Of a stretch of 64,000 nt of DNA, positions 841-58,339 are shown piece after piece. A program made the translations under genes and the position numbers. The stretch spans positions 475,001 through 539,000 of the forward strand of contig RPFO01000027.1 in the NCBI GenBank assembly GCA_009746045.1. The letters run 5' to 3'. Within the stretch, counting starts at the first letter, position 1, and the number at the start of each line of letters is the position of its first letter. The notes below the pieces were generated by a model. It searched no databases and was not told the DNA's origin. It saw only the letters and a list, made by a program, of their open reading frames with translations. This DNA is from Mesostigma viride. Lineage: Eukaryota > Streptophyta > Mesostigmatophyceae > Mesostigmatales > Mesostigmataceae.

Positions 841-841
841 T

Positions 842-7371: not shown

Positions 7372-7386
7372 CTTGAGGGGGAGATA
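7372..7386 (+). promoter_or_regulatory. Polypurine tract
   Basis: TTGAGGGGGAGATA abuts the 3' LTR start at 7387, the expected position and composition for the plus-strand primer of a Ty3-type element. Confidence 0.85.
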
Positions 7387-30668: not shown

Positions 30669-30671
30669 GGG

Positions 30672-31313
30672 TGTCAGAAATATTGAGACTTGTAGGTCGA
30701 AAACGATAGTGACAATTAAAGATTACGCTTTATTATCATTGCATATTAAATCCCGGACTACCACCGTTTGTCCACCAAAACCATGATGTGGCTCCCGGGT
30801 GGGGACCATAAGCGTCAGCCATAACTCATGGCTCAGACCTTAGGTAAGTGCAACGTAGGTTGCGTCTTCCTCTTATGCACAAAGGTGCACAAAGAGTGAG
30901 TGCTCGACAGGCTGGCACAAAGATTGCGTAGCTTATCTGAAATGTGCTGAGAATGCGTTACGCTAGCCAGATTCCGTTAACACTCTCTAGTCGAGTAGTA
31001 CGACTGAATAGTACGCTAGCTATAGGTCGTAGGACCCTGAACGTACAAGTCTTGATATAATGTGCCGGTTCTCGTAGCTTCGGCACTAATATCTTAGTCA
31101 CTCCGTGACCAAATCATGAGCCGTAACATGACACGTGCTCACTGCCCCAACACTGCATAATACTCTGCCGATATTAATTATGGCCACAAATACGGCAGGC
31201 GGGTGCGATTATTAGGGACGCAACCCTAATACCTCCGTTTACAATGGATGGCCTATATGAAATATATTAACGGCAGGCAGTTGGGCACACAGGGTGAACT
31301 TCACCCCTGACAC
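30672..31313 (-). repeat. LTR (3' in element sense) of the small LTR element
   Basis: TGTCAG...CTGACA, near-identical partner of 32177-32817. Confidence 0.92.
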
Positions 31314-32176: not shown

Positions 32177-32817
32177 TGTCAGAAATATTGAGACTTGTAG
32201 GTCGAAAACGATAGTGACAATTAAAGATTACGCTTTATTATCATTGCATATTAAATCCCGGACTACCACCGTTTGTCCACCAAAACCATGATGTGGCTCC
32301 CGGGTGGGGACCATAAGCGTCAGCCATAACTCATGGCTCAGACCTTAGGTAAGTGCAACGTAGGTTGCGTCTTCCTCTTATGCACAAAGGTGCACAAAGA
32401 GTGAGTGCTCGACAGGCTGGCACAAAGATTGCGTAGCTTATCTGAAATGTGCTGAGAATGCGTTACGCTAGCCAGATTCCGTTAACACTCTCTAGTCGAG
32501 TAGTACGACTGAATAGTACGCTAGCTATAGGTCGTAGGACCCTGAACGTACAAGTCTTGATATAATGTGCCGGTTCTCGTAGCTTCGGCACTAATATCTT
32601 AGTCACTCCGTGACCAAATCATGAGCCGTAACATGACACGTGCTCACTGCCCCAACACTGCATAATACTCTGCCGATATTAATTATGGCCACAAATACGG
32701 CAGGCGGGTGCGATTATTAGGGACGCAACCCTAATACCTCCGTTTACAATGGATGGCCTATATGAAATATATTAACGGCAGGCAGTTGGGCACACAGGGT
32801 GAACTTCACCCCTGACA
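32177..32817 (-). repeat. LTR (5' in element sense) of the small LTR element
   Basis: About 641 bp, TGTCAG...CTGACA, followed by the AGGGG duplication. Confidence 0.92.
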
Positions 32818-40674: not shown

Positions 40675-41320
40675 ATTTAGATGAACGCGGATCAGTGAGT
40701 TTCTGGTCTTCCCAAGATGTGATGAATGGAGCCATGGTTTCAACCAGCGGCTTTTAACCTTTACCACTGTTGCCTCACTACCCTGTGGTCACTAGCCTGA
40801 GGCGGCAGTAACCACGGACGGTGTTGGGAAAAGACGCTTGGCCACTGCTGTGTCCGAGCCTTTCTAGGTCTCACCATTGCTGCCAGGCCTTGCACGCCTT
40901 GGCAGGTCCGCCACTGTCAGTTTCCTTGGTTGCATCAATCCAGGACGTCTGTCCTTCCATGAATGACAGTAACGCTCTGGATTTATCCGTCATGACAAGT
41001 ACCCGTCCATCCCAGGCCTGCAGGACTGCCAGTCCTGAAGTCCTGTGACATTCTTGGTACCATCAACCAATATTGACCACAGTACCTCCTAGTGACAGTC
41101 GGTCCTGTGACACGTAACGTGTGATGGTTCACCCAACACTGCCACGTGCCCTGTCCCTCACGTGTCCTTAGTCCTGGTACTGCTGTAGCGTCCGGCGGCA
41201 TTACTTCGGGACTTGATAACTCTCAAGTTCCTTGTCCAAATGAGGCGTTTAGCACGGCGTTGGAAAGGCCACTTCAAGTATGATATGCTTAGCATATTGC
41301 ATCACCAATATGCTAACTCC
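40675..41320 (-). repeat. 3' LTR of copia2
   Basis: Plus-strand reading ATTTAGATGAACGC...ATATGCTAACT; direct partner of 48203-48846. Confidence 0.93.
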
Positions 41321-41621: not shown

Positions 41622-41648
41622 CAGGAAACGTATTACAGTGAGTTCCTG
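41622..41648 (-). promoter_or_regulatory. Hairpin presenting the complement of the copia2 primer site
   Basis: Arms CAGGAA (41622-41627) and TTCCTG (41643-41648) enclose a 15-nt loop. In element sense the loop contains ACTGTAATACG (41629-41639), the exact reverse complement of the 11 bases directly after the 5' LTR (48192-48202). The adjoining sequence GGGAAGACCAGGAACTCACT also resembles the 3' end of the LTR itself. Confidence 0.7.
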
Positions 41649-42280
41649 GTCTTCCCAGTTATCACTGGCGCCCGTTTCATGGCGCCCGCCCCGAGCGTTC
41701 CAGGCATCATCCATCCAAATGTTCACCAATGGAAACCACTTCAACACCACTGTGCCACTGCTTGATGGGGAGCCCATGTCATCACTGGGTGTTAAAGCCC
41801 AGGAGTCATACATACCAGGCTGTGGCTCAACTAGGGAATCGAACCCTACCCCAGAACCCCAGGTTAAACTTAACCTGGTCACATGACAGACAACAAGAGA
41901 GATTGGCATACAACATGATTATGTTTTATTATAGAATATCCACCAAAACCAATGTTGAGTGTTCCCAGTGGACCAGCCTGCACCAGCAAGGCCCAACTGT
42001 CAGGTTACAACACCATAATATCCAAGGTTGTCACTTATTCACAGCTAAAGAAAACTAAACAAGAGAGATATATACAAACAACCTGGAAGAACTCTCAACA
42101 TGGCCTGCCCTGTCATGGCCTAACTGCCCGAGGCCAAAGGCATCCCACTGTGCTAATCCTTTACAGGAAGAGCTTGCTCCTGTTGAGCCTTCTACCTGCT
42201 TGGTGACAGGTAGGCTACCTGTTGCCCTCCCCCCTGGGGACAACAGCACTGGTCAGCCACCAACTGGCAAAGGCTGGACT
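41649..42280 (-). other. copia2 3' non-coding region
   Basis: Between the pol stop and the hairpin; no ORF of note. The polypurine-like sequence at the 3' LTR edge (AAAGGGTTGG on the minus strand, about 41321-41330) has a near copy at about 41519-41532. Confidence 0.5.
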
Positions 42281-45200
42281 TCAAGTCCCACCAGAAAAGG
42301 GGTACATGAGCCCTTTGAGCACAGGGTATTGTAGCTCAGCCTTGCTCTCCAGCTTGGTGAGGGCGTCTGCTGGGTTGTCAACACCAGGCACATGTTCAAG
42401 ATGAGCAAGGTAAGACATCTCCTTCAGCAACAAATAATCCAGATCCCTGCTCCTGGCGAGCTGTCTGTGCACAAACTGCACCATGCCCATGCTGTCTGTC
42501 TTGACCAGTGTGTGCAGCTGCAAGCTACAGGAAGCTACCTGACAGAGCTGGTAGAATAACTCCCTGAGGTAAAGAGCAGTGTGTAGCCCCTCACATATTG
42601 CCCTGCACTCAGCAATGTCACTGCTGGGCGTCACCCTGTTCTGTAACCTACTGTACCAGCTGACCAGAGAAGTGTGCTCCTGTTGTAGTGTAATGAGTGC
42701 TGCTGCCCTACCCCTGACATCCGTCACCTTCCTGCTGTCCATGGAACTGTCCACAAAAAGCACCATGTTGAGTGGTTTGTACAAGTCCACAGCTGCCAGT
42801 ATGAGTGGAGGTGAGCTCCTGACAGACTCAACCACCTGCTCTGCCCCTACCTCAACCAGCTGAGCATCTGTGAGCCTACTCAGCACCAACAAATCTGGGG
42901 CACAAATGCTAGCTAGCCAAGCCAACATTCCCCTGATTGTGGCACACCTGGCCTGGGTAATGGGCTGCTGGAGGGCATCAATGATCTGCTGAGGATAGTT
43001 GTTGCCACCCTCCATCTTGATAAACCAAGTACCTGCCCTCTTGATCAGCGTGGCCTGCATTCCACAAAACACCATGGGCTCATCCTGCTTCATGTGCTGG
43101 ACCTTTCCTAACTCAAACCTCTTCTGGATCTTGGACAGTACTGAATCCACCCACTCAGGAGGCCCTAGAAGGTGCAGGTCATCTCCATGCAGAGATGCAA
43201 ACACAGGCAACCCTTCATGAGTACTCTGGAACAAGCAAGGATCAACTGGAGACACAGTAAAGCCACAGTGAGTTTTCAGAAACTTTTCCAGGCTCTTTCT
43301 CCAGATGATAGGGCTGGACCTGAGACCCTCCAAACCCTTGAGTATTCTGAGATATTTTGACTTGATCTCTGCTCTCCACACCTTGGGCACTGTTACAAAG
43401 AAGGGAGGGATATCACGCCACGTCTCCTTGGCCTGCTCCACATCACCCTTGAGAAAAGCCCTCTTGAAATCAATCAGCACAGAGCTGTACGCAATGCCCT
43501 TGACCAGGAAAGACAGATATATACACAGAACAATCCTCCAGGTATCATGCAGCATCCCAGGCGTATACAACTCCTCATCTGTCAGCTCCCCCGTGCCATG
43601 GTACTCAGTCACAACTGGCCTCACATGTGGCACCTGCACACCGTCTATCTCCTTCAGCTTGAGCACAAACAAGAGCCTTAGCAACTGATGCTCCCTGGGC
43701 AACTCATCCACAGGCTCAGCACAGTTAGACACTATCCAGTCATGCCCACTGGAGACAAACCCTAGAATCCATGCCTTAGCCATCTTGGGGCTTTGCATCA
43801 ACTCTACCAACTGGTGCCAGGAAATAGGACTGTGACCAGCAATCTGGTACTTGTGCACCCCCAAGTCCCGTGGATCTAGGGTGGTTGGGATGATCAACAA
43901 GTCCTCAGCAATGGGCTCCTTGCCTTCAGGCCCCACACTCTGCTGCCCCTTCACAGCCTTGACTGCCACAGCTAGACCCTTGGAGTAGTGATATCTCTGG
44001 AGGGGCAAACTGCCATGACCTTCTAGTGCAAGCTCATCTGCTGACAGAGTCACTCCTGGCATGCACAAGAAATTCTGGCCCAAAATGGCAGGCCCCTGGT
44101 ACCCTTCCACCACACAGAACGCAGTGGGGACACCCAGGATAGGCACAGTCACTTCCCCTAGGATCTTCATTGTTACAGTGCCCGTAAAGTCACTCACTGC
44201 CCTGCAGCCAGCCTTATTCACCTTCAGGCCCTGAGCATCCTCCACCCTGATGATAGACACCTCTGAGTTAGTATCCACTTCTAGGGTAGCAGCCCAGCAA
44301 GAACCCCATTCAGTCAACTTAGATACCTTGGGATCCTTGTGCTTGTTGAACATGAGCGACCGGACAATGTCTGCCATGAGTGGCCTCTTGGACCCTGGTG
44401 CAGGCCCAGCCCCCGTTGGCTCCACCACAGGTGATGCAGTTGCCTCCTGCACCTCATCATCATCAGAGGGATAGCCACCTCCCACGTCAGTGACAGGCAC
44501 ATCAACTACCTGGTCCTTAACCTGGCCCTCCAGCCAACACTGGGGTCCAGGCCCGTCTGCAGGCCAGATTGCATGTGGCTTGCGTTCCTTGACGTTGGCC
44601 CAGCTCAACCTGTAAACATGCCTGGGATTACTCTCCAAGGCCACAAGGCAGGAACGATTGGCATCTTCCACACAGGTCACCACCCCGTTCTGCCACTTGC
44701 CCCTCTTGCCCTGCATTGATGGCTCCTTCCACATTCTGACCTTCAGCCCCACCTGAGGCCTCAGCACATTCCAGCCCCTATCCTTGCGTCTCAACTGAGC
44801 AAACACCCTGTCTGCTTTCCTCAAGCAAGCCTGGACCACTTCCTGGGCTAGCATCCCAAACTGCAGTGCTACAGGATTGACAGCCACCCCGTCATAATAG
44901 TAGTTTATTCTGAGGTTCAACTGTTCTTCCACCTGCCTGGTCCACACTGCCCTCTCCAAAGCAGATGCTACCAGTGGCACCTTAGGTTCTGCCAGCACTA
45001 CGGTCTTGACCTCCCTGATGGATCTCTCCACAGCACCTTGCTGTCCATGGCTCTCCCTGGGCGTGACCAGCAGCTTGCATGGCAGTTGCTCCTGCTGTGA
45101 CAGTAGGCACTCAAACTGAATATCAGCCTGTACTGTCTTGTACACCCCAAAGCCTGGTAAGAGAGTCTGCAAGCCCAGCAGCAGGGTATTCCCCTTCATA

Positions 45201-45820
45201 TCTGGCAGAATCTGGAGCAGCCTGTACCTGCTAAATCTGTCCACTGCCACCAAAATGTATAAGCCCCTGATATGCTGGACGTCTACCTGGATGTCCCCCT
45301 TCTCCCTGGCAGGCTCCCTAGCATGGGACCTTGGCTTCTTGGCAGCATTCTCCTTACAAGTACATTGCTCAGCTGCAGCCCTGCATGCTTCCCTCAGTGG
45401 CTCATCTCCAATCTTCCAACCAAACATCTCAGCCATGGCTGTGTGACCAAAGATATTGTGCAGCCTGCGTCCAGCATCCGTGTAGCTCAGTTGCCTAGCC
45501 AGATTACGCACCTGGGAAGACGCCTGGACGGGCCCTGCGTGTGAGGACGCAACATCCACCTTCTGCATCTTGGATCCAGAGGACCCAGCAGACCCTCCCA
45601 GCAGAGCATCTAGGCTCCCAGAGCCAACCCTGTCTGGGGACCCTCCACCTGTTGACAGTTGAGGGGATTGTTGTGCTGCAGCATGCATGCAATCTTGTGG
45701 AATGAGAACATCAGTACACCCCTGGTGCTGATCAGAGGTGGCACCCTGCCCAGATTTATTTACATGTGAAGCTGTGTCCCCACAGGGTGTCTCACTATGT
45801 ACACGGGACTGCTTCACTAG
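42281..45820 (-). CDS. copia2 pol: integrase, protease, RT, RNase H
   Basis: About 1179 codons in the same frame as gag, after one UGA. Numbering is from the GTG at 45817. Integrase: H120, H125, C152, C154, then D179 (IQVDVQ), D232 (QADIQF), E264 (GAVERSIREV). Protease: EVDTNSEVSII (D515-T-N, where DTG/DSG is usual) and PAILGQNFL (about 577-584). RT: VLIDFKRAFLKGD, LEGLRSSPIIW and SLHGDDLHLLG (HGDD for the usual YVDD). RNase H: LFVDSSMD, IAECRAI, VKTDSMG, NPADALTK. The frame is uninterrupted. Standard copia order is protease before integrase, so the protease position is abnormal; copia1 has the same order. Confidence 0.9.
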   Translation of the reverse strand, partial: LVKQSRVHSETPCGDTASHVNKSGQGATSDQHQGCTDVLIPQDCMHAAAQQSPQLSTGGGSPDRVGSGSLDALLGGSAGSSGSKMQKVDVASSHAGPVQASSQVRNLARQLSYTDAGRRLHNIFGHTAMAEMFGWKIGDEPLREACRAAAEQCTCKENAAKKPRSHAREPAREKGDIQVDVQHIRGLYILVAVDRFSRYRLLQILPDMKGNTLLLGLQTLLPGFGVYKTVQADIQFECLLSQQEQLPCKLLVTPRESHGQQGAVERSIREVKTVVLAEPKVPLVASALERAVWTRQVEEQLNLRINYYYDGVAVNPVALQFGMLAQEVVQACLRKADRVFAQLRRKDRGWNVLRPQVGLKVRMWKEPSMQGKRGKWQNGVVTCVEDANRSCLVALESNPRHVYRLSWANVKERKPHAIWPADGPGPQCWLEGQVKDQVVDVPVTDVGGGYPSDDDEVQEATASPVVEPTGAGPAPGSKRPLMADIVRSLMFNKHKDPKVSKLTEWGSCWAATLEVDTNSEVSIIRVEDAQGLKVNKAGCRAVSDFTGTVTMKILGEVTVPILGVPTAFCVVEGYQGPAILGQNFLCMPGVTLSADELALEGHGSLPLQRYHYSKGLAVAVKAVKGQQSVGPEGKEPIAEDLLIIPTTLDPRDLGVHKYQIAGHSPISWHQLVELMQSPKMAKAWILGFVSSGHDWIVSNCAEPVDELPREHQLLRLLFVLKLKEIDGVQVPHVRPVVTEYHGTGELTDEELYTPGMLHDTWRIVLCIYLSFLVKGIAYSSVLIDFKRAFLKGDVEQAKETWRDIPPFFVTVPKVWRAEIKSKYLRILKGLEGLRSSPIIWRKSLEKFLKTHCGFTVSPVDPCLFQSTHEGLPVFASLHGDDLHLLGPPEWVDSVLSKIQKRFELGKVQHMKQDEPMVFCGMQATLIKRAGTWFIKMEGGNNYPQQIIDALQQPITQARCATIRGMLAWLASICAPDLLVLSRLTDAQLVEVGAEQVVESVRSSPPLILAAVDLYKPLNMVLFVDSSMDSRKVTDVRGRAAALITLQQEHTSLVSWYSRLQNRVTPSSDIAECRAICEGLHTALYLRELFYQLCQVASCSLQLHTLVKTDSMGMVQFVHRQLARSRDLDYLLLKEMSYLAHLEHVPGVDNPADALTKLESKAELQYPVLKGLMYPFSGGT

Positions 45821-45826
45821 TCACTT
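45815..45826 (-). promoter_or_regulatory. Gag-pol stop-codon readthrough site
   Basis: In element sense AAG TGA CTA GTG: the gag stop is followed at once by CTAG, with pol open in the same frame. UGA followed by CUA is a documented efficient readthrough context. Use of this site is inferred. Confidence 0.7.
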
Positions 45827-47144
45827 CTGATCAGACTGCCCCTTCTTCTTGTTTGGGCAATCCCTCTTCCAGTGACCTTCCTTGCCACAAGCAAAACACT
45901 TGCTCTTGCCAGACCCTCCCCCTGGGGCCTTGCTGTCCTGCTTGTTCTGGTTGCCTGAGGCCTGATTGTTATTCTGCCCCTGGCCACCACCCTTACCCTG
46001 CTGATGGCTGTTACGGTTGCCAGACTGGTTCCCCTGATTCTGGTTCCCCTGCTGACCTCCTCCACCACCCTGGTTCTGCTCCTTCTGGGCCTGCTTCCTT
46101 CTCCTGCTACCATACCGTGTCCCAGATGGGGTACGGTTCTTGCCCTGGCTAGCCTGAGACGCTGACCCTCCCTGAGAACTGATACCCTTGCAGGTAGGGA
46201 CCCGGGTCCTGAAGTTTAGTATCACACGCTTCAGAGCCCCCCAGGTGCCATCAGTGAGATCACAGAGCTGCCTAGCAGTAGCCCTACCTTCCTCTGACAA
46301 GCCCATCTTATCAAAGAAGTGGTCTGCTGCTGCCCTGACTGTCACACTGAAGCCCTGCTTCTTGCCTGCCTCCACGATCAACTCAAACCTGGCCAGCTCA
46401 GCAGCCACCTCACCCTTGATCTCAAACTCATCAAATTCTCTCTTCTTTTCCATGGTGAGATTGTGAACCCTGTCAGAAAACTCCTCCTTGATGTCATCAG
46501 GAACTGCAGCCAAGTGTGCCCCTCTTTCAGAGCATGCCTAGCCATGTCATTGACCCTTTCAGACGACCCCTTGTTTGCGGTGGAAGAGTGAAACACCCTG
46601 ACAATATCCACACCTGCTGCGACAGAGCCCACAACTAGCTTCATGTCATCAAGCCATTTATCCAGGTTGTCTTGCTTCAGGGAGGGTTGAGCGCTTTCTG
46701 CCCATTCATGACTGTCACAGCATCAGAAAATGGACGGGTGCCAGGCAACACACTCCCCACACGCACTGGTGGTGCCTGGGGAGGGTCAATCCTAGCCTCC
46801 AAACGCTCGGGCAACATACCAGACACCCTATCGTGAACAGCAGCTTGCTTTGCAGCACGCACACCTGGGGTGACGATGGCGTCCTCCTCACCAGGCGTTG
46901 TGAGCACCACTGCATCCGTAGGTCGCCTGGCACGCTTGACTTTCTCCGCCTCAGCTTGCCCATCACGCCACCGCTTGTGTGTTCTCCCGGCTCTGGGGTC
47001 CATCTCTGGGATAGGTTGCCCAGCTGGCGCCTCCACGCCCCTCTCCTCCATCGCCTCCCCTTCCTCTCTGGCGATGTCCTCCTCTGCCGTTCGCTCCCGT
47101 TGCTCCTCGAATGTCGCCGCACCCCGGCTTGCCCTCCTAGGCAT
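45821..47144 (-). pseudogene. copia2 gag, frameshifted
   Basis: Starts at ATG 47144 (MPRRASRGAATFEEQ), a charged region to about 46690. The homologous reading then moves to a second frame (KLVVGSVAAGVDIVRVFHSS, up to 46644) and to a third (46513 onward: DDIKEEFSDRVHNLT, RAAADHFFDKMGLSE). It ends in a glycine/glutamine/asparagine-rich linker and a zinc knuckle CFACGKEGHWKRDC (about 45850-45900). Both changes are -1. The final frame is the one that continues into pol. Gag should package the RNA; whether the shifts are damage or programmed is unknown. Confidence 0.75.
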
Positions 47145-47212
47145 TATATACAATGGCTGCGACCAACTTTGCAACAAGAAAACAGCAAACTCTCCACCTA
47201 TCCTCCACCCCC

Positions 47213-48178
47213 TCAAGCCTCGTTTTCAGACGAAGCTTCTCCTGCAACCGGTGCAGGTGCTGGCTCGTGGAACGGTCCCTCCACCGGATTCAATGGCTGC
47301 CCCTGGTCGTCGTGAGTAGGCACAGGCCTAATAACCACCGGAAGCCTCAAACCATACGCGTAATCACGTATCCAGCGAGAACGCCCCCACCTCAACAAAT
47401 GGGCCTCACCTAAACCAACGTTGTCGTCAATGTGGTAGCGATTAAGCTCGTCCCGCTGCGCCTGCTCACGGCCCTCCTGAGAGCCGTCGCCCTCGTGACG
47501 CCTCTGGGCCGGCTGTACTACCGCCCCTGCTGGCTGATCTACGAAGTCGTAGAAGGCGTCGTCGGCTGAGACCTCTCGACCGCCAACCACGTCGACAGTC
47601 AAACTTAGCTGGTTTAACTCTCGGCGAGAATGTGGAGTATCCCGACTAGTGTAGATGGAGAAGGGATTAAGAGTAATGAAGACACGATCAGCAGCGCCTC
47701 TGGTCAACTCTAAGACAGAGTGCGCCAGATTCTGGCACTCTGCCACCAACGCCTGCGTACTGCCACGAACGATGGCCTCCCGCCTGTCCCGGGCGACCTG
47801 CACCACGTTTGGCACGCCGGTGTAGTCGTCCCCAAGGCGGAGATTGGCGACAAGGTCGTTTATCTCTCGGGCACCCCCGAGGCTTATGGCAATTATCTGC
47901 AAAAGCAGAGTGACCACCTGCTCAAACGCGAATGCGTTTGTGTGGCCAGCCCGCCAAGACGCTGGCAGCCTTCTGATGATTTCCGCGAGGTCCTCGCGAA
48001 ATCTCAGCAGCTGCTCGGCTGCTCCTCGGACGTACTCGCCCGGCGCCGACACCGCACGAATATTTCGGCGCACTTCCTCCGAGTCCTCGTGCCCTCCTGC
48101 GGGTACTGGACTGGACGCCGCTACCGTTGCTGCACGCGCAAAGGTGTTTGTCCTAGCTTCAGAGTCCGAATTCGACAT
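47213..48178 (-). CDS. copia2 ORF-A, unknown protein preceding gag
   Basis: 321 codons from ATG 48178, 24 nt after the 5' LTR; earlier in-frame codons lie within the LTR. The middle is predominantly helical and polar (LLRFREDLAEIIRRLP, EQVVTLLLQIIAISLGGARE) and the C-terminus is acidic and proline-rich. No zinc knuckle, protease or polymerase motif. It may be a capsid-like N-terminal gag part made as a separate protein or a novel accessory protein. The following ORF starts about 70 nt after its stop. Not recognised. Confidence 0.6.
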   Translation of the reverse strand: MSNSDSEARTNTFARAATVAASSPVPAGGHEDSEEVRRNIRAVSAPGEYVRGAAEQLLRFREDLAEIIRRLPASWRAGHTNAFAFEQVVTLLLQIIAISLGGAREINDLVANLRLGDDYTGVPNVVQVARDRREAIVRGSTQALVAECQNLAHSVLELTRGAADRVFITLNPFSIYTSRDTPHSRRELNQLSLTVDVVGGREVSADDAFYDFVDQPAGAVVQPAQRRHEGDGSQEGREQAQRDELNRYHIDDNVGLGEAHLLRWGRSRWIRDYAYGLRLPVVIRPVPTHDDQGQPLNPVEGPFHEPAPAPVAGEASSENEA

Positions 48179-48191
48179 ATCCGTCGACCAG

Positions 48192-48202
48192 ACTGTAATA
48201 CG
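48192..48202 (-). promoter_or_regulatory. copia2 primer-site region (self-complementary type)
   Basis: CGTATTACAGT (element sense) starts exactly at the LTR edge. It does not begin TGG, so it cannot pair with a tRNA 3' CCA end, but it pairs fully with the loop at 41629-41639. Confidence 0.65.
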
Positions 48203-48846
48203 ATTTAGATGAACGCGGATCAGTGAGTTTCTGGTCTTCCCAAGATGTGATGAATGGAGCCATGGTTTCAACCAGCGGCTTTTAACCTTTACCACAGTTG
48301 CCTCACTACCCTGTGGTCACTAGCCTGAGGCGGCAGTACCCACGGACGGTGTTGGGAAAAGACGCTTGGCCACTGCTGTGTCCGAGCCTTTCTAGGTCTC
48401 ACCATTGCTGCCAGGCCTTGCACGCCTTGGCAGGTCCGCCACTGTCAGTTTCCTTGGTTGCATCAATCCAGGACGTCTGTCCTTCCATGAATGACAGTAA
48501 CGCTCTGGATTTATCCGTCATGACAAGTACCCATCCATCCCAGGCCTGCAGGACTGCCAGTCCTGAAGTCCTGTGACATTCTTGGTACCATCAACCAATA
48601 CTGACCACAGTACATCCTAGTGACAGTCGGTCCTGTGACACGTAACTTGTGATGGTTCACCCAACACTGCCACGTGCCCTGTCCCTCACGTGTCCTTAGT
48701 CCTGGTATTGCTGTAGCGTCCGGCGGCATTACTTCGGGACTTGATAACTCTCAAGTTCCTTGTCCAAATGAGGCGTTTAGCACGGCGTTGGAAAGGCCAC
48801 TTCAAGTATGATATGCTTAGCATATTGCATCACAAATATGCTAACT
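48203..48846 (-). repeat. 5' LTR of copia2
   Basis: About 644 bp; followed by ATTAT at 48847-48851. Confidence 0.93.
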
Positions 48847-48851
48847 ATTAT

Positions 48852-49104
48852 AACTTCCTTAAATGAAGTACAGTCAGGTCTTTGAAAGGAGGGGACGTGC
48901 ACTTAATTTTTGGAAACCATATAGTACATAACCTATGCATGGGACAAAAATCCAATGATGATTGGGGTCTGGGGACCATAAATATGATTTTAAAAAAAAT
49001 TCCAACCCCTTGGTGGGGTAGGACCCCCCACCATGTGCCCGTTATGTGCTAAAGAAAGAGAAGACGCTATTTTAGTCACATGTTCCCTAGGACAATATTT
49101 AACG
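48852..49104. repeat. Repeat Q, copy Q3 (left part)
   Basis: Blocks ATGATTGGGG...GGACCATAAAT, a CCTTGGTGGGG...CCCCCCACCA block, GTGCCCGTTA and AAAGAAAGAGAAGACGCTAT match 60745-60905 in order. It ends at the AT-rich site carrying the LINE nest. Confidence 0.6.
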
Positions 49105-49115
49105 CAAACATATAT

Positions 49116-49567
49116 ATTCATTGAGAATGATAGATTACGGAGGTGAGATAGGCATGCAACATAAGGAAAAACCCGATAACTGGGAGAATAACCCTGAAGA
49201 AATTAATAGTAATCCGACACAGACATCCAAGGATCACGCCAGCGGCACAAGGTACAACTAACTATACATCACAAAACTACACGCAGCAACAGCGCTGCCG
49301 GCCCACCATGCAGGCCTGGAAGGGATCTAGACCGCATGGGTCGCGACAAAGTCGGCCCGGGTGCGGCGGAATAACACATCAGCCACGGTGCGAGTGAGGG
49401 CGAGTGACAGGCGCTGCCGCCAATACGAGGACCACGTGCGGGCCGACCACGGGGCGGTCTGACCCTCGAGGTCGAGGCGGTCTTCACGGCGCTGGCAGCA
49501 CTCGTGGAAAAACTCCGCTGTCTTGGGGCCCATGGCCCCGAACTCCTCAAGGACAAAGGGGATGACC
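49116..49567 (-). mobile_element. RLE-type LINE copy C, 5'-truncated
   Basis: The minus frame 49533-49327 (KTAEFFHECCQRREDRLDLE to RRTRADFVATHAV) is clearly related to, but diverged from, the C-terminus of family B (SAFFKECCRLREDRLDLE to RRTRADFAVQQGY). It has a different 3' UTR. CAAACATATAT on the left (49105-49115) and at 49568-49578 is its probable TSD. Confidence 0.75.
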
Positions 49568-49578
49568 CAAACATATAT

Positions 49579-49816
49579 TAAAAATATAATTACTTACAGC
49601 AGAGTGAAATCACTCAAACCAAAGCAAACGCCCAGCTATAAACCTATATACAGAGCCATGTCAAAGCTCTATACTACGATAAGACCAATGGAAACGCCTA
49701 ACGGGAGGAACCTAATAGCCCTGCTGCACCGCAAAATCAGCCCGCGTACGGCGGAGCATGATGTCAGCCATGGCCCGAGTCAGCGCCACCGACAAGCGCT
49801 GACGCCAATATGACGT
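49579..49816 (-). mobile_element. RLE-LINE fragment B2
   Basis: 238 bp of the B 3' end (last about 25 codons and 3' UTR) on the minus strand, flanked by CCAAACATATAT (49567-49578, 49817-49828). Confidence 0.85.
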
Positions 49817-49837
49817 CCAAACATATATATTAGGAGG

Positions 49838-51490
49838 ATTGCTCCGGCTTTCCGCCCCAGCTCTTGGGCCGGGACGAGCGCCTCCATGGGTTGGATGTCC
49901 TCGGCGTTCCGGTTGGCGACCCCGCGTTTGTCATCGATGCTCTGCGGGCCGCCCTCGAGGCACGCACTGAGGTACTGCCCTTGATTGCGCGCCTTCATGA
50001 TTCGCAGACCAAGGGTCTGCTTCTGTGGTTTTGCGCTCACCCTCGCGTCGTTCACTGGCTCCGGGGCGCTCTTCCGTCTCAGGTCCGGCTGGCCGCCGAG
50101 GGCCACGACGAACGCATCCAGTCGGCCTTGGCGCAGCTGGTCCCGGGCCCCGACCTCCCGCCACATGCTATTCGCATTGCCTCCCTGCCTGCACGGATGG
50201 GTGGCTGCGGTCTGACTCGTGCCGCCCGGCTGGCCCCAGCAGCCTTTTTGGGCTCCGTCGCTCAGTCGTGGGCGGAAAGCTGCCGGCTCCTGCCCCTTTT
50301 GGCAACGGCAGCGCCTGACCTCCTGGACCCCAGCAGCCCTTTGCCCTTCGTCACCGCCATCCAGGAGGCCTATGCTGAGATCCAGCAGGCCTGTTCTCCC
50401 GTCCGTGCCGCTCAGGCGGTACAGCGCCACCTCCCTCGCGGCACTCCCTCGGTCGCCTCCGTTCAATCTCCCGCCGCATTCCCTGCTCGCGTCATCGATA
50501 AACACCAGAAAACCTACGCGGGTATTCTGCACACGGCTGATTGGATTGCTCTTTTCGCGGACCTCAACGCCCAGGGACGTGCGTGGCTGTTCTCGCTTTC
50601 CTTGCGGAGTGTGGGCTCGGCGTACCTTCGTGCTCTTCCCATGGCCCCCCCATTCGCCTTGGCTCCCAGCCACTACTCGGTGGCGCTCCGGCACCAGCTA
50701 TTTGCCCCGCAGCCTCTTGTTCCGGCCGGGCGGCCTTGTGGTAGCTGTGGGCAGCCGCTGGATCCCACGGGGACTCACTACCTTGCCTGCATGGGGGGCC
50801 AACAGAATCAGAATTGGTATTTGTATTTGCACACTGTCCTCCTGACGGTGGTGCTCGCCATGATTCGGTCGGTTTTCCCCCACGCGAACATCCGGTCCGA
50901 GGATGCGGATGGCGCTGCCTTCTATTCCCCCAACCACCGGCCTGACATCGTGGTGCTGGACTTTGAGGGGGTGGCCGGCATCTGCTTATTGACGTTTCGG
51001 TGGCGCGGCCCTTGGCTCTTAGCCACGTGGCTGGGGCCTCCCTCACGGCAGGTTACACGGCGGACCGGGCGGAGCGGGCCAAGCTCCTGGCCTACGGCGA
51101 CGTCGGGCACCATCGTGTGGTGCCCTTTGTCCTGGAGGAGTTTGGGGCCATGGGGCCCCTGACCTCCGCCTTCTTCAAGGAGTGTTGCCGGCTCCGGGAG
51201 GACCGGCTGGACCTGGAGGGCCAGCGGGCCCCATGGTCGGCGCGGACCTGGACGTCATATTGGCGTCAGCGCTTGTCGGTGGCGCTGACTCGGGCCATGG
51301 CGGACATCATGCTCCGCCGTACGCGGGCTGATTTTGCGGTGCAGCAGGGCTATTAGGTTCCTCCCGTTAGGCGTTTCCATTGGTCTTATCGTAGTATAGA
51401 GCTTTGACATGGCTCTGTATATAGGTTTATAGCTGGGCGTTTGCTTTGGTTTGAGTGATTTCACTCTGCTGTAAGTAATTATATTTTTAA
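49838..51490 (+). mobile_element. RLE-LINE copy B3 (RT thumb, CCHC, endonuclease)
   Basis: 1653 bp flanked by TATATATTAGGAGG (49824-49837, 51491-51504). The frame from 49864 carries the region after the RT palm (LDVLGVPVGDPAF, RIASLPARMGGCGLTRAARL). A zinc knuckle CGSCGQPLDPTGTHYLAC (Cx2C-x8-Hx3C, about 50736-50790) follows, then a restriction-like endonuclease with NHRPDIVVLDFE. One missing G near 50965 shifts the rest (VARPLALSHVAG onward) into the 51000-51356 frame, so IDVSV is out of frame here. A CCHC knuckle followed by RPD...DV is the R2/CRE-type endonuclease arrangement. Confidence 0.88.
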
Positions 51491-51504
51491 TATATATTAG
51501 GAGG

Positions 51505-51847
51505 CCATGGGGCCCCTGACCTCCGCCTTCTTCAAGGAGTGTTGCCGGCTCCGGGAGGACCGGCTGGACCTGGAGGGCCAGCGGGCCCCATGGTCGGCGC
51601 GGACCTGGACGTCATATTGGCGTCAGCGCTTGTCGGTGGCGCTGACTCGGGCCATGGCTGACATCATGCTCCGCCGTACGCGGGCTGATTTTGCGGTGCA
51701 GCAGGGCTATTAGGTTCCTCCCGTTAGGCGTTTCCATTGGTCTTATCGTAGTATAGAGCTTTGACATGGCTCTGTATATAGGTTTATAGCTGGGCGTTTG
51801 CTTTGGTTTGAGTGATTTCACTCTGCTGTAAGTAATTATATTTTTAA
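51505..51847 (+). mobile_element. RLE-LINE fragment B4
   Basis: 343 bp of the B 3' end, with the same flanking TATATATTAGGAGG on both sides (51491-51504, 51848-51861). Confidence 0.88.
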
Positions 51848-51861
51848 TATATATTAGGAGG

Positions 51862-52187
51862 ACGGCACTCGCGGCGGCCTGCTGTCGCGGTCGGGCACCC
51901 AGCAAGGGGACCCCCTGGGACCCCTGTACTTTGCCGCCCCCCTCCAGGGTTGCCTCCAAGCGGTCCATGCTGCCCACCCGGCGGTCGCTATTCAGGCCTA
52001 CTTGGATGATATCTACCTTCTGGGCCCTGTGCCGGACACCACCGCGGCTCTGCTGGCACTGCAGACCGCGGTGGCCGACATCAACCTCCAGTTGACCCTG
52101 GCCAAGTGCGCGGTGTACTCGCCCCAAGGTGATTGCTCCGGCTTCCCGCCCCAGCTCTTGGGCCGGGACGAGCGCCTCCCTGGGTTG
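51862..52187 (+). mobile_element. RLE-LINE copy B5/6, left part (RT palm)
   Basis: Encodes LSRSGTQQGDPLGPLYFAA and AYLDDIYLLGP, the RT palm with catalytic YLDD, then LTLAKCAVYSPQGDCSGFPP. It is cut at GGTTG (52183-52187) by copia1 and continues at 58340. It is 5'-truncated within RT, so its fingers and any N-terminal domain are missing. Confidence 0.88.
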
Positions 52188-52532
52188 AGTTGAGTAACTC
52201 TAGAGCCCTAGGATCTGGCTCTGAGTTCCCCATGTCCGTCCGCACGCCTTCCGCTAGCGTCCGCTCAGCCGCCGGCTATAATCCGGCGGTCCGATGCGGG
52301 CGACCGGTCTAAGGGCGGCGCCTAGGGCCGGCGCCACCTAGGCCCCAGTCCGGGGCCTTATCCGGGTCAGTACGGACGGCTAGCTTGTCCCACGGTTACG
52401 GCTAACCGGATAGGGTTTGCTGGCTAAGACATAAACCAGTGGTGGGCCAGTTCCGACAGTAGTTCTCTGTGTTCACCTTATCCCAAGCTCAACGTGACCG
52501 ACCGCCATAGCTGAGCCGGTCGGGCTTTAACT
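52188..52532 (+). repeat. 5' LTR of copia1
   Basis: 345 bp, AGTT...AACT termini. A CCGGCTATAATCCGGCGG palindrome-like stretch lies near 52272-52290. Confidence 0.95.
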
Positions 52533-52544
52533 TGTATTCATAAA
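52533..52544 (+). promoter_or_regulatory. copia1 primer-site region (self-complementary type)
   Basis: TGTATTCATAAA begins at the LTR edge. It is the exact reverse complement of TTTATGAATACA at 57645-57656 and does not fit a tRNA 3' end. Confidence 0.65.
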
Positions 52545-52551
52545 AATCCCG

Positions 52552-53391
52552 ATGGCTTCCGGTACACGGAGCCGCACGGGCGAACACACAGATACGCCAA
52601 GTGGCGAGGCCGCAGGGTCCGTCCTGCCACGCTTTAGTGCGGACGAGGCCACGAGGTTGATGCAAACCCTCGTGGCGCAACCTGAACTGGCCAAGCAGTT
52701 CAAGCATCTCATGCTGGCTGCTGACGATGCACTAAATCGCGGCCCTCTCAAGCAAACGGAGGTGCCCGCTGATCTACCGGCCGACTATACGGCGGACGAC
52801 GCAGCAGATTTTCTAGCTGCTCTCAAGCGTCTGCGCGATGGACGCGCAGACAAAGATTCGGAGCTGATTGGCAAGTTCCGTGCAGTATTCTGCAGTACAA
52901 CAAAGCACCCAAACATTGCCAATCTAGTTCGCATTGCGGACGACAACAAACAAACCTGGGAAGTTTTTTACAACGGTCTAGATGCCCACTTGTCGCGGTC
53001 TAAGGAAGAGGCCGACGAGCAAGCCTTCAACGACTTCGAGGGCTATGCAGTTAATAAGGCAAATTTGCCCGGGGCTGCACGTGATTTCCAGGTCTTCGTG
53101 CACAAGCACAAGCTGCTAGATACTCTCAAGCCCATTTTCCTGTGCAATCGATTTCTCAAGAAATGCGACCTGTCGTCGGATGTGCATCTGACCATAGCGA
53201 CGGAACTCAAAAAGAAGAGTGCCGTCAGTTTCGACGAGGGCATGCTGTATTTGATCTCATGCTTCAAGAGTGCGCAGTCCAAGCCGGCTGCCTCGGCTGC
53301 TCTGCCATCCCTGCGCAAGGTGGATGCCGGCGCGTCTTCTTCTTCAGGCGCAGAGGCTCCATTACGCGGTCGGAGCTTACGGCCATCCTGA
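52552..53391 (+). CDS. copia1 gag
   Basis: 279 codons, ATG 20 nt after the LTR. The protein is helical and charged (FSADEATRLMQTLVAQPEL, YTADDAADFLAALKRLRDG, PGAARDFQVFVHKHKLLDTL, LTIATELKKKSAVSFDEGML). No zinc knuckle; the knuckles lie in the next frame, to which reading must move -1 around 53340-53375. Assignment to gag rests on position, since the capsid sequence is not one I recognise by motif. Start chosen as the first ATG after the LTR. Confidence 0.75.
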   Translation: MASGTRSRTGEHTDTPSGEAAGSVLPRFSADEATRLMQTLVAQPELAKQFKHLMLAADDALNRGPLKQTEVPADLPADYTADDAADFLAALKRLRDGRADKDSELIGKFRAVFCSTTKHPNIANLVRIADDNKQTWEVFYNGLDAHLSRSKEEADEQAFNDFEGYAVNKANLPGAARDFQVFVHKHKLLDTLKPIFLCNRFLKKCDLSSDVHLTIATELKKKSAVSFDEGMLYLISCFKSAQSKPAASAALPSLRKVDAGASSSSGAEAPLRGRSLRPS

Positions 53392-54581
53392 AAAAGGTCG
53401 TCGGCCACGGCAACAACGGGGGCCAGCGAGGGCGCAAGCGCGGGCATGGTGGCGACGCCAAGCAGGGTGATAATCCCCCGGCCAAGCGGCAGCAGGGGGC
53501 GTCTACTGACCGCAAGCAACGCTGTGAGCGCTGCTTCGGACGTCGCCATGTCCGGGATGACTGCCGAGTTCGCCCGGACCTGGAGCTCGAGGACAACCTT
53601 TGCCGCAAGTGCCACGACGTTCTGCGTGGTCACAGCGTGGAGGCGTGCAAGGCCAAGCGCATCGTCGTCCACGGCACACGCGAGGAGTGGGCAGAGCGAC
53701 GGGCAGCACGAAAGTCAGGTGAGAGCACGCTCGATACCCCTTCTTTTGCTCAATGCGTCACGCTGAACCGGGCCGTCGTAGAGCCTGACGTCGTTCCTAA
53801 AAGCAACGTGACTGCATCCTCTGTCTCATTCCGTGATGTGCTCACGCAATCCGTTGATGCTGCTCTGGCTCTGTCGCGCCAGGATCACGTGCTTCCTGAG
53901 CACGGGTCTACAATGCGTGACCTAAGCAATGTGGTGTCTTCTAGGTCGGGTGTGTACAACGCCGAGCGACCAAGCACTACTGCAGCACCCCAGCTAGATA
54001 CTGGGGCGGTTGGGCCTATGAGGAATGTTGTGACAGTGCAAGAGAATGCTGGGCGGGCAGATGTTCTCGGTACACACCACCCTAGTGTGGATCTTCACAT
54101 TGGCAAGGTGCTCACACGGGCGGCCTTTCGTGCAGCCTCTGAAGCTGCCCAGTTAGCCAATGTCACTACCCCAGTAGTCACCCCACCTGTTGAGAATCCT
54201 GACAATGCCACTGCACCTCAGGCTGTCACCCTGAAACTGTTAGCATACCAGATGCACCGTGCATACGGGCATGAGGCCCAAGCCGAGGTAGAGGGGGCAC
54301 ACATGTTAGGGGCACCTTTATACAACGAGCTGAAGAATGTGCGTGCTCAGTGTCCTGCCTGCATCAAGATCAGGAAGAAGTCGCGTAGGCGGCATGCCAA
54401 GACTCCACCCTTGGAGCGAGGGTACCTTGTGGGGGATGTCATGCACATGGAAGGGGGGGACACCTATTTCATAGTCAAGGATAGGTTCAGCAAGGCCACC
54501 TACATTGAGCCGCTGCCCCACATGTTGAGGCTGACCTGCACAGGGCTATCAAGATCAGCCTGGCTTTCTTTCATCCCGTAG
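53340..54581 (+). CDS. copia1 zinc knuckles and integrase, first part
   Basis: In the frame 53142-54581 meaningful homology starts near 53350. A basic GQRGRKRGHGGD tract leads to CERCFGRRHVRDDC (Cx2C-x4-Hx4C) and a second CRKCHDVLRGHSVEAC. A variable linker follows, then the integrase zinc domain (HRAYGH...CPAC) and the first catalytic Asp in GDVMHMEGG, continuing FIVKDRFSKATYIEPLP. The frame then breaks near 54531. No protease motif lies between the knuckles and integrase, where copia normally has it. Confidence 0.8.
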   Translation, partial: FFRRRGSITRSELTAILKKVVGHGNNGGQRGRKRGHGGDAKQGDNPPAKRQQGASTDRKQRCERCFGRRHVRDDCRVRPDLELEDNLCRKCHDVLRGHSVEACKAKRIVVHGTREEWAERRAARKSGESTLDTPSFAQCVTLNRAVVEPDVVPKSNVTASSVSFRDVLTQSVDAALALSRQDHVLPEHGSTMRDLSNVVSSRSGVYNAERPSTTAAPQLDTGAVGPMRNVVTVQENAGRADVLGTHHPSVDLHIGKVLTRAAFRAASEAAQLANVTTPVVTPPVENPDNATAPQAVTLKLLAYQMHRAYGHEAQAEVEGAHMLGAPLYNELKNVRAQCPACIKIRKKSRRRHAKTPPLERGYLVGDVMHMEGGDTYFIVKDRFSKATYIEPLPHMLRLTCTGLSRSAWLSFIP

Positions 54582-55333
54582 TGGAGCTCATGCTAGACCA
54601 GCAGTTCCGCTGTGTGCAAGGTTTGCCGGGGATGGAGGCCGTGGTCATCGTGGGGCGTGAGGATCACGGCAATATGGGCATGATAGATCGCACTGTAAGC
54701 TATGTCAAGACTGTGGCAGCCAAGCGACAGGATAACCCACATGGCAAATCCTACGCGGTCAAGACGGCGTGGTGCAAGGAGCTCATGCATGTGTGCAACC
54801 ATAGGCACGTGCTTGATGTCAAGGGCTTTGGGCTAGTCACGCCTCGGGGGCTGTCAGCGGGCACCTACTCACCCGAGGTAGTAGAGGCATACCAACAGCA
54901 TCTACAGGATACCGCCGCCAAGCTGCGGCTCAAGGATGCCACGCTGCCTGATTTGTCTAGCGCTTTTGAGGTCGGGCAGTTGGTCATGTTCCACAAGGAG
55001 AGCTCGCCCAGCGGCAAACGGGGCACCATGCAGGGGCCTGGGGCCATCACAAAGTTAGACTGGCCGCTGCGGGTCATAGACATAGAGTGGAATGATCGGG
55101 TGTATAGGGTACCATGGGCATCGGTGGCAGGCTATAAGCAAGGGGATAGCATGGAGAGTGAGCTGGCAGCCAACAGGGCACTGGGGTGGGTAGTGAAGGA
55201 TAATGCGCCTGTCGTAGCATCTGAGGTGGTACCCCACGGGTCGCTCCCAGGGGCAGACACAGCTACACCCCCCCCTCCCCTGGGCCCCAATATGACCCCG
55301 TGGATGGGTGGGATGAGGATGGGGTGGGTTTGA
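54531..55333 (+). CDS. copia1 integrase, second part
   Basis: Continues after a -1 change with EADLHRAIKISLAFFHPVVE, the second Asp in LMLDQQFRC, and GREDHGNMGMIDRTVSYVKT. Here Asp stands where copia2 has the catalytic Glu (GAVERSIREVKT). The spacing (29 residues) is close to copia2's 31. The GPGAITKLDWPLRVIDI and YRVPWASVAGY strands form the C-terminal domain. The frame stops at 55333; reading moves -1 into the next frame, probably at the C8 run 55268-55275. Confidence 0.75.
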
Positions 55334-57618
55334 CGGGACCTAGTGCACGTAGTGACTCACCTCCTGTGCTAGCCACGGATAATGTGGGAGGCCCGCCTAG
55401 CGTGGCCTCGCCGGAGGGTCAGGGTCCTGCCCATGCGCCTCGCCCACCTAGGGACCTGGCTTCAACGGTCACGGCCTTGTGGCGTGCTCAGGCGCTTAAA
55501 GCGAAAGCTGCATCAGGGGTGGCTCAGGTCAAAACTCTCTCACAGGGGGTCAGGCCGGTTAAGTCAGCCTTGTTTCCTACGTGTAGACCGTGGCAGCTGG
55601 TGGCTGTGGACACGCAAGCATCCGTGTCTATTATCTCTCGTCGGGCAGCCACCCTGTATCCAGTGCTAGAGTCGCCGTACAAATCGGTGACCGACTTTGC
55701 AGGCACTTCGGCATATCAAGTTACCGGGATGGTGGTGCTGCCGGTGTTGGGCATTGACACGCCGTTTCACGTCGTGGATGGCTACGAGGATGTGGCCTTG
55801 CTGGGCGAACCTTTCGTATCATACCCGGGGTTCTCAGTGTCCGCTGACTTGCTGTCAGTCGCGGGGGTGGGCAGCATCCCGCTTCGCGAGTACCACGCTC
55901 CATTGGGGGTGGTGGTCGGGCAGCCCGGCGTCGTGCGGCGCTTACCGATGGCGGCGTTTTCCACACCGCCGCTCGTCCAGTCCATCATTCAGCCTCAGGA
56001 TTGGCACCCGCGCAGCTTCGGCCTCCACTCACACTCACTGGCGGCGGATAGCCCTGTGACGTGGGAGCAACTTGTCCTGGACTGTCAAGATCCTCTCAAG
56101 TTTGCTTTGTGGCGCGACGCGTTCATTCGAGCCAAGGAGCAGTGGCGAGAGCGCGAGGTCTACCGAGGATTGGAGAGTGTGCCAGCCGGGGCCACGCGGT
56201 TGCGGTTGAAGTTCGTGCTCACCTACAAGCCGGACGAGACCAACTCTTCGGTGGTGTTCCGGGTAAGGCCCGTGGTCACGGAGACGAAGGGGTCCTCCCC
56301 GCTGGACGCCAAGGATCTTTATACCCCTGGGCTCAACCATGTTTCGCATCGGCTACTGACGGTCATCTACTTGGGCAAGCGGAACGCGGGCAAGGACTAC
56401 GGGATGTGGTGCGGTGACTTTCAGCGGGCATTCCTCCACAGCGACGCTGGGGTCGCGCAGCAAACATGGCAAGGCACCCGCTACGTGGTGAAGGTCCCGG
56501 TGGTCTGGCAGGATGGCACCATTGGCAGCGAGTATATCGAGCTGTTGACAGGGGTGGAGGGGCTGCAGAGCTCTCCCATCATCTTCCGCATTTCCGCGGA
56601 GGAGGTCTTGCAGAGCTTAGGGGCCACGTACCATCGCGCGGATCCTAACTTCTTTGTGGTCCCCACCGGCGTCCCTGGCGAGCCAGCCCTCTTCGTGTGG
56701 CATGGCGATGACTTCAAGCTGGTGGCACCTCGCACCTTTGCTACCCAGTTTCTTGCTGCAGTGGCGGCTAAGTTTCCCCTGGGCAGGGCGGTGGATCATG
56801 AGGAGGGTAAACCCGTGGTGTTTTGCGGCGTGCAGTCTACGTTGCAGCGGGATTCGCGTTCTGGCGAATGGGTCATGCACATGCAGGATAGCCGCAACTA
56901 TGTGGTTGACCTGCTGGCCGACCTCCCGTCCCCGCTGTTGGCAACCCATGGGCCCTCGGTTAAGGGCAAGCTCGGGTGGTTGGCGGACACGGTGGCACCT
57001 GATTTGGCAGTGCTCGCTCGCCTGCCCGATGATGTGCTGGAAGGACTAGGGTCCATTCATGTTCGGCGGCAGCTGGCCATGACGCCCGGCATTGTGCTTC
57101 GTGGGCTCGATTGCTCACAGCCGGTGCACCTCGAGATAGTGACGGATGCTAATCTAGAGACGCGCACAGTCAGCCAAGTGCGGGCCCGCATGGGGGCACT
57201 GTTCTTTATCAGCAATGAGGGCCAGCCTGGCATGTTGTTAGATTGGTACTCGCGCTTGCACAGCCGCATTGCCACTAGCCCCAACACGGCTGAATGCCGG
57301 GGCATTGTTTCAGCTATCTCACATGGCATGTGGCTGCGGTACTTGCTGGGTTGGGTATTTGGCTCGTGTGGGTTCACTCTTCACTGGACTAGCACGGTGC
57401 ACACTGACTCACAAAGTTGTTTGGCCTTCCTTGACAATCCCTATGCGCGGTCACAGGACGTTGATTACCTCGTACTCGCTGAGGCGGCCTCCTGCGTCAC
57501 GCGTCTCCAGCACATCGCGGATGAACTCAATCCCGCGGATGCACTCACCAAGGAGGCGCGGGAGGCTGCCCCGCAGTACGCAGTGTTGCGCAAGCGCATG
57601 ACGATGCAACACCCGTGA
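55300..57618 (+). CDS. copia1 protease, RT and RNase H
   Basis: 772 codons. Protease: AVDTQASVSII (D104-T-Q-A) and VALLGEPFVSYPGF (about 165-178), aligning block by block with copia2's DTNS and AILGQNFL. RT: LRLKFVLTYKP, VVTETKG, WCGDFQRAFLHSD, VEGLQSSPIIF and FVWHGDDFKLVAP (HGDD). RNase H: EIVTDANLE, TAECRGIV, VHTDSQSC, ELNPADALTKEA. The frame is complete to its stop. The start is a frame entry, not an initiation codon. Active-site Gly of DTG is replaced in both elements, so the change predates their split. Confidence 0.9.
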   Translation: MDGWDEDGVGLTGPSARSDSPPVLATDNVGGPPSVASPEGQGPAHAPRPPRDLASTVTALWRAQALKAKAASGVAQVKTLSQGVRPVKSALFPTCRPWQLVAVDTQASVSIISRRAATLYPVLESPYKSVTDFAGTSAYQVTGMVVLPVLGIDTPFHVVDGYEDVALLGEPFVSYPGFSVSADLLSVAGVGSIPLREYHAPLGVVVGQPGVVRRLPMAAFSTPPLVQSIIQPQDWHPRSFGLHSHSLAADSPVTWEQLVLDCQDPLKFALWRDAFIRAKEQWREREVYRGLESVPAGATRLRLKFVLTYKPDETNSSVVFRVRPVVTETKGSSPLDAKDLYTPGLNHVSHRLLTVIYLGKRNAGKDYGMWCGDFQRAFLHSDAGVAQQTWQGTRYVVKVPVVWQDGTIGSEYIELLTGVEGLQSSPIIFRISAEEVLQSLGATYHRADPNFFVVPTGVPGEPALFVWHGDDFKLVAPRTFATQFLAAVAAKFPLGRAVDHEEGKPVVFCGVQSTLQRDSRSGEWVMHMQDSRNYVVDLLADLPSPLLATHGPSVKGKLGWLADTVAPDLAVLARLPDDVLEGLGSIHVRRQLAMTPGIVLRGLDCSQPVHLEIVTDANLETRTVSQVRARMGALFFISNEGQPGMLLDWYSRLHSRIATSPNTAECRGIVSAISHGMWLRYLLGWVFGSCGFTLHWTSTVHTDSQSCLAFLDNPYARSQDVDYLVLAEAASCVTRLQHIADELNPADALTKEAREAAPQYAVLRKRMTMQHP

Positions 57619-57621
57619 GCC

Positions 57622-57675
57622 ACACAGGGTTACGGCTCGGGCGCTTTATGAATACAGCCATAACTCACCCTGTGT
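57622..57675 (+). promoter_or_regulatory. Hairpin presenting the complement of the copia1 primer site
   Basis: ACACAGGGT (57622-57630) pairs with ACCCTGTGT (57667-57675), and TACGGC with GCCATA (one mismatch) inside. The 20-nt loop 57637-57656 ends with TTTATGAATACA, the exact complement of the post-LTR sequence. The loop start TCGGGCGCTTTA resembles the LTR 3' end TCGGGCTTTA. Confidence 0.75.
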
Positions 57676-57994: not shown

Positions 57995-58339
57995 AGTTGA
58001 GTAACTCTAGAGCCCTAGGATCTGGCTCTGAGTTCCCCATGTCCGTCCGCACGCCTTCCGCTAGCGTCCGCTCAGCCGCCGGCTATAATCCGGCGGTCCG
58101 ATGCGGGCGACCGGTCTAAGGGCGGCGCCTAGGGCCGGCGCCACCTAGGCCCCAGTCCGGGGCCTTATCCGGGTCAGTACGGACGGCTAGCTTGTCCCAC
58201 GGTTACGGCTAACCGGATAGGGTTTGCTGGCTAAGACATAAACCAGTGGTGGGCCAGTTCCGACAGTAGTTCTCTGTGTTCACCTTATCCCAAGCTCAAC
58301 GTGACCGACCGCCATAGCTGAGCCGGTCGGGCTTTAACT
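57995..58339 (+). repeat. 3' LTR of copia1
   Basis: Read as identical to 52188-52532; followed by GGTTG at 58340-58344. Confidence 0.95.

Follow-up and report, generated by a model that had tools for sequence, protein, structure and literature searches.

Five copia-related retrotransposon families of Mesostigma viride pair their post-LTR bases with a site near the 3' LTR, a candidate self-primer

In five families of copia-related LTR retrotransposons from the genome of M. viride, the bases directly following the 5' LTR are complementary to a site that precedes the 3' LTR by a few hundred nucleotides, and both sites co-vary between the families. This suggests that these elements carry a primer of their own rather than using a cellular tRNA, and we consider self-priming of reverse transcription from the 3' site the probable reading (probability roughly 0.7). 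Host tRNAs prime most LTR retroelements, and to our knowledge the self-priming exceptions place the primer at the 5' end of the RNA.

Complementarity between the LTR edge and the 3' region

Two of the families, copia1 and copia2, are located in the window, i.e., the whole 64 kb stretch of DNA that was analysed (Table 1). The LTR pair of copia1 is 100% identical over 346 aligned bases and that of copia2 98.2% identical. Both LTRs open with AGTT, close with AACT or AAAT and are accompanied by 5-bp target site duplications (TSD; GGTTG and ATAAT, respectively), although copia2 may alternatively have a 6-bp TSD with its edge one base earlier. The 12 nt adjoining the 5' LTR of copia1 are the exact complement of a site 338 nt upstream of its 3' LTR, and the 11 nt adjoining the 5' LTR of copia2 are the exact complement of a site 310 nt upstream. 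In the whole window, the two positions listed for each element are the sole two places of its 12-mer or 11-mer pair. The initial annotation had reported both complements, their start at the exact LTR edge, a distance of 300-340 nt to the 3' LTR and a primer side that does not start with TGG; all of these were confirmed, the edges being set by LTR alignment together with the TSDs.

Table 1. Features of the five families. Positions without a locus name refer to the window.
Feature	Position	Strand	Basis or remark
copia1 5' LTR (AGTTGAG...TTTAACT), 345 bp	52188..52532	+	LTR alignment and TSD GGTTG
copia1 primer-binding position TGTATTCATAAA	52533..52544	+	directly after 5' LTR
copia1 first open frame, "gag position" (named by position)	52552..53391	+	no Pfam match
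copia1 stretch in which pol order was read	53142..57618	+	motif reading
copia1 open frame with DTQAS protease-like motif, RT (HGDD) and RNase H	55300..57618	+	motif reading; no Pfam match
copia1 hairpin, 9-bp outer stem, 3' site in loop	57622..57675	+	folding
copia1 3' site TTTATGAATACA, proposed self-primer	57645..57656	+	exact complement of 52533-52544
copia1 3' LTR	57995..58339	+	LTR alignment and TSD
copia2 5' LTR (AGTTAGC...CTAAAT)	48203..48846	-	LTR alignment; TSD ATAAT
copia2 primer-binding position CGTATTACAGT	48192..48202	-	directly after 5' LTR
copia2 frame with zinc knuckle (gag-type)	45821..46513	-	zf-CCHC, E 1.7e-7
copia2 pol open frame, 1178 aa: integrase-like, protease-like motif, RT (HGDD), RNase H	42281..45817	-	profiles and motif reading; pol order by motif reading
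22-nt copy of copia2's own LTR	41636..41657	-	LTR copy at 48221-48242; overlaps 3' site by 4 nt
copia2 3' site ACTGTAATACG, proposed self-primer	41629..41639	-	exact complement of 48192-48202
copia2 possible hairpin, 3' site in loop	41622..41648	-	sequence reading; forms in 47-nt piece only
copia2 3' LTR	40678..41318	-	LTR alignment and TSD
copia3 LTR, followed by CAAATTACAACC	L029 957-1654		TSD CTTAC
copia3 stretch in which pol order was read	L029 3984-7541		motif reading
copia3 3' site	L029 8108-8117		complement of first ten post-LTR bases
copia4 5' LTR, followed by CGTATTATTGT	L030 395-1038
copia4 3' site ACAATAATACG	L030 7918-7928; L011 4906-4916		in L011, 311 nt upstream of 3' LTR
copia5 5' LTR, followed by CGTATTACACGC	L031 962-1578
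copia5 3' site TGTAATACG, 9 nt	L031, L033, L034		in L034, 442 nt before 3' LTR

Twenty further copies of copia1 were fetched from the genome. The primer position was identical in 21 of 21 matches from these copies, and the 3' site with its hairpin was identical in all 14 copies with uninterrupted coverage; the other six were left out, five lacking that stretch and one, L016, carrying an insertion inside the site. The inserted piece (L016 5577-6230) is LTR-like and starts with AGTTAGC. Since the copies are 98-99% and above alike, they are too similar for compensatory changes.

Three further families of the clade, all from the same genome, were reached via database proteins: copia3 via P0006 (55% to copia2 over the aligned RT-RNase H region), copia4 via P0005 (85% to the copia2 RT) and copia5 via P0009 and P0010 (59% and 64% to the copia2 RT), whose places in the genome overlap and thus represent one family. 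The genome matches that were scored are lower bounds, comprising the best 40 of 599, 39 of 9994, 103 of 7195, 101 of 7278, 150 of 6195 and 141 of 5859 candidates. Both sites occur within one copy in copia4 (L030) and copia5 (L031). In L031 an insert of 1.8 kb (about 7724-9490), apparently flanked by a short target duplication, lies beside the 3' site of copia5; the site is intact there as well as in L033 and L034.

The exact complement measures 12, 11, 10, 11 and 9 nt in copia1 to copia5, respectively, so that at least 10 nt of self-complement to the post-LTR position were found in four families and 9 nt in copia5. In all five families examined at both ends, the pairing begins at base 1 past the LTR, the distance from the 3' site to the 3' LTR is 231-442 nt, and the primer-binding position starts with TGT, CGT or CAA and never with TGG. 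Within the own 5' LTR, the complement starting from the edge reached only 3-5 nt in each of the five families, which rules out a Tf1-like primer inside the 5' LTR for all of them.

The background was assessed by taking the longest exact complement from each internal position, with the 900 nt that precede the 3' LTR as the target. Positions matching or beating the length at the edge (edge included) numbered 1 of 4547 in copia1, 3 of 5969 in copia2, 4 of 5779 in copia3, 3 of 6147 in copia4 and 10 of 5407 in copia5. With a 400-nt target, the LTR edge was the single top position among 4962 (copia1) and 6381 (copia2). On these position fractions, a chance origin of the match was rejected. The remaining three LTR pairs in the window, searched in both orientations, gave runs of at most 9 nt and none in the arrangement of copia1 and copia2; 9-nt runs appeared in two of the six orientations, one beginning 4 nt inside the LTR and the other having its partner inside an LTR. 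Duplex energies of the flanked regions did not separate the real pairs from shuffled ones, as long flanks dominate (best of 200 shuffles -43.1 vs. -35.1 kcal/mol for the real pair, and -37.9 vs. -30.7 kcal/mol); the exact runs by themselves reached -11.3 and -13.2 kcal/mol.

Co-variation of the two sites

The initial annotation had noted that copia1 and copia2 pair through different sequences and read this as co-variation, an observation that extends to all five families. Over the first ten positions, the families' own pairs match in 49 of 50 cells, and among the 120 possible re-pairings of the families only the true one reaches 49. The next best reaches 48 and is a swap-like case permitted by the nine bases that copia2 and copia5 share. 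Columns 1, 2, 3, 7, 8 and 9 show two or three types of Watson-Crick pair with every family paired, and column 10 shows two types with four of the five families paired; column 11 is paired in three families and column 12 in one. Between copia2 and copia4, whose pol stretches are 77.6% alike in DNA, positions 8 and 9 have changed on the primer side as well as on the 3' side, and the same holds for positions 2, 3 and 10 between copia2 and copia3. Relatives lacking the complementarity would have spoken against the initial proposal; all three added families have the complement together with compensatory changes.

A match due to chance or shared ancestry, without any function, is scarcely credible. 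Part of the match does reflect shared ancestry because CGTATTA is common to copia2, copia4 and copia5, and copia2 and copia5 are not independent since they share nine bases at both sites. However, this reading is opposed by the position fractions given above, by the compensatory changes that separate copia1, copia3 and copia4 from copia2 and by the agreement of all three families that were searched for.

The co-variation as such fits any selected pairing, and it is thus compatible with the view that the pairing only closes the RNA, circularising or dimerising it and aiding packaging or strand transfer, the primer itself being a host RNA. The long-range 5'/3' pairing with a hairpin loop in copia1 accords with such a role. 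We nevertheless regard it as unlikely. The pairing occupies the primer position and begins at the LTR edge in all five families, neither of which closing needs, and there is no G-U among the 53 pairs. The 53 contiguous pairs are without exception Watson-Crick, in part a consequence of the exact-match rule of the search, and the first pair beyond each run is never G-U. Runs made entirely of Watson-Crick pairs are expected if one side was copied from the other.

Surroundings of the 3' site and coding regions

In copia1, folding gave the hairpin proposed initially, whose 9-bp outer stem encloses a loop containing the 3' site; it reached -18.6 kcal/mol and a z-score of -3.0 in a 57-nt piece, whereas another fold wins in a 101-nt piece (z -1.3). 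The 6-bp-stem hairpin proposed for copia2 stood only in part: it appears in a 47-nt piece but is not the minimum-energy fold in two longer pieces, which fold otherwise, so that full support was not obtained. In short pieces of copia2 and copia4, CAGGAAC and its partner close a loop that contains the site, and the 3' sites of copia3 and copia5 gave weak folds. According to these predictions, the hairpin is a likely but not a general feature and is well supported only in copia1.

The suggested resemblance of the loop flank to the LTR applied to copia2 but not convincingly to copia1. At the 3' site of copia2, a 22-nt stretch is identical to its own LTR in 21 positions (E 1e-5), and in copia4 (L011 and L030) a 23-nt stretch is identical in 21; each copy matches the LTR of its own family. 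In copia1 the flank has only a 10-nt match (E 0.46), and no LTR copy was seen beside the 3' site of copia3 or copia5. Because new minus-strand cDNA is complementary to such a stretch, the LTR copy could catch cDNA near the 3' end. In copia2 and copia4 it may thus serve the first strand transfer from its place beside the putative primer; cDNA docking of this kind would also suit a pairing that only closes the RNA.

The usual domain order of Ty1/copia elements is PR-IN-RT-RH, with the protease before the integrase. In copia1, copia2 and copia3, motif reading instead gave integrase, protease, RT and RNase H; the RT active site reads HGDD, and the protease had no profile match. In the copia1 frame, DTQAS, HGDD and RNase H are likewise assigned by motif. 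In copia2 pol, the profile rve (residues 174-209, E 0.017) precedes the protease-like motif, read near residue 520, and RVT_2 (residues 705-910, E 8.5e-7) comes after it, its 29.2 bits being below the cut-off of 31.6. The profile search gave no RVT_2 match in copia1 or copia3. The RT-RNase H region of copia1 shares 37% identity with that of copia2. The database proteins nearest to the copia2 RT are the M. viride models P0005 (85%) and P0008 (99%), and the nearest outside proteins, which carry RVT_2, share 22-24% identity. No relatives were confirmed in the collections of viral contigs and genome contigs. Two RT fragments with close similarity to these families, P0007 and P0010, are listed under dinoflagellates (Prorocentrum lima and Alexandrium andersonii). 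Many copies in this genome match P0010 at 100% identity over 220 aa; either cross-contamination of datasets or recent transfer may lie behind this.

Two more LTR elements were noted in the window. The element at 127-8100, one of the three further LTR pairs compared above, is of a second kind: its ends are TGTAACA...GTTACA, and its LTR is followed by TTGGTATCGGAG, a tRNA-type site of ordinary appearance that resembles the usual initiator-tRNA site. In the 2.1 kb element at 30671-32817 (- strand), a 9-nt run that starts one base inside the LTR edge is exactly complementary to a stretch within the LTR, which may be either a Tf1-like self-primer or a chance match.

A proposed self-priming route and its comparison with known systems

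By definition, the 3' end of U5, i.e., the 3' edge of the LTR, is where the 3' end of the primer lay, and the register of the pairing at this edge is therefore what a primer predicts. The start at the edge, the lack of TGG and the lack of a complement in the own LTR are all predicted by a primer and are not required by mere closing. In the proposed route, the 3' site would pair with the 9-12 nt after the 5' LTR, either in cis or between the two RNAs packaged together; a hairpin loop would present the site in copia1 and, probably, also in copia2 and copia4. Cleavage at the 3' terminus of the site, which the element's RNase H might perform as described for Tf1, would free a 3'-OH exactly opposite the first post-LTR base, from which minus-strand synthesis would start into U5. 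Plus-strand synthesis would then copy the primer RNA. The primer-binding position of every new element would in this way be written anew from the 3' site, and both sites would stay exactly complementary. As the cut would sever the 3' LTR from the body of the RNA, the route needs a further RNA, either another one packaged in the particle or a separate short primer RNA.

The initial annotation had considered a cis-encoded primer or a closing interaction possible, and the compensatory changes in the three further families support this; from the arrangement of the sites we infer priming itself, the cut that frees the 3' end, annealing, strand transfer and primer copying. The fuller scenario, in which a hairpin-borne primer is cut from the element's own 3' region and copied into the primer position in each cycle, both sites drift together and the clade diversifies without any host tRNA, has in our view an even chance of being correct.

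Half-tRNA priming is used by Drosophila copia, and a host RNA could also prime here, for instance a different half-tRNA in each family, with the 3' site as a second, decoy or mimic copy. A reading of copia2 ACTGTAATACG gives a possible GTA (Tyr) anticodon in an anticodon-loop context; no tRNA gene was found in the 64 kb window. Among green plants, Osser, Bryco, Gymco-II and Bianca are elements for which half-tRNA priming is predicted (PMC6317226). One shared tRNA does not explain the sites, since the five differing primer sites each match their own 3' site, and with differing tRNAs several of them plus several mimics would be needed. Priming by host RNA is accordingly quite improbable, and self-priming remains the preferred reading. 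The half-tRNA systems Osser, Bryco and Bianca likewise have a primer-binding site without a TGG start, but their partner is a host tRNA and not an own 3' site.

In Ty1, the long-range 5'-3' pairing CYC5:CYC3 is proposed to circularise the RNA; it resembles the pairing described here as a 5'-3' interaction in a copia-group RNA but is not located at the primer position, and tRNA-iMet primes. A close analogy is provided by Tf1/sushi and Tcn1, in which an element-encoded primer of about 11 nt is the exact complement of the position after the 5' LTR (PMC7175516, PMC6317226); the Tf1 primer consists of the first 11 nt of its own RNA and is released by a cut between bases 11 and 12 (PMC7175516). Tf1 is, however, a Ty3/gypsy element with its primer inside the 5' LTR, whereas the families described here are copia-related and their candidate primer is unique sequence 231-442 nt before the 3' LTR without LTR complement. 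A survey of LTR elements in green plants predicted self-priming in the Tcn1 and TAR lineages (PMC6317226). The TAR lineage (Houba, Osr-1) belongs to the copia group, to which the present families are related, but self-primers were sought only in the 5' LTR in that survey (PMC6317226). In Ty3, a bipartite tRNA-binding site at both RNA ends likewise makes priming depend on both ends (PMC11381356), but there both ends bind one tRNA-iMet and here they complement each other. Titles and opening lines of abstracts in the open-licence literature name no self-primer located at the 3' side, which is weak evidence of absence.

A survey restricted to the 5' LTR, such as that in PMC6317226, would count elements with a primer near the 3' end as lacking a primer-binding site or miss it. 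If the proposed reading is true, elements without a recognised primer-binding site could be rescanned by a simple rule, comparing the bases after the 5' LTR with the last kilobase before the 3' LTR. It would also raise the question how the RNA survives or uses a cut upstream of its own 3' LTR. Self-priming from the 3' site would represent a second way for an LTR retroelement to prime itself, and it predicts a visible cDNA-RNA junction.
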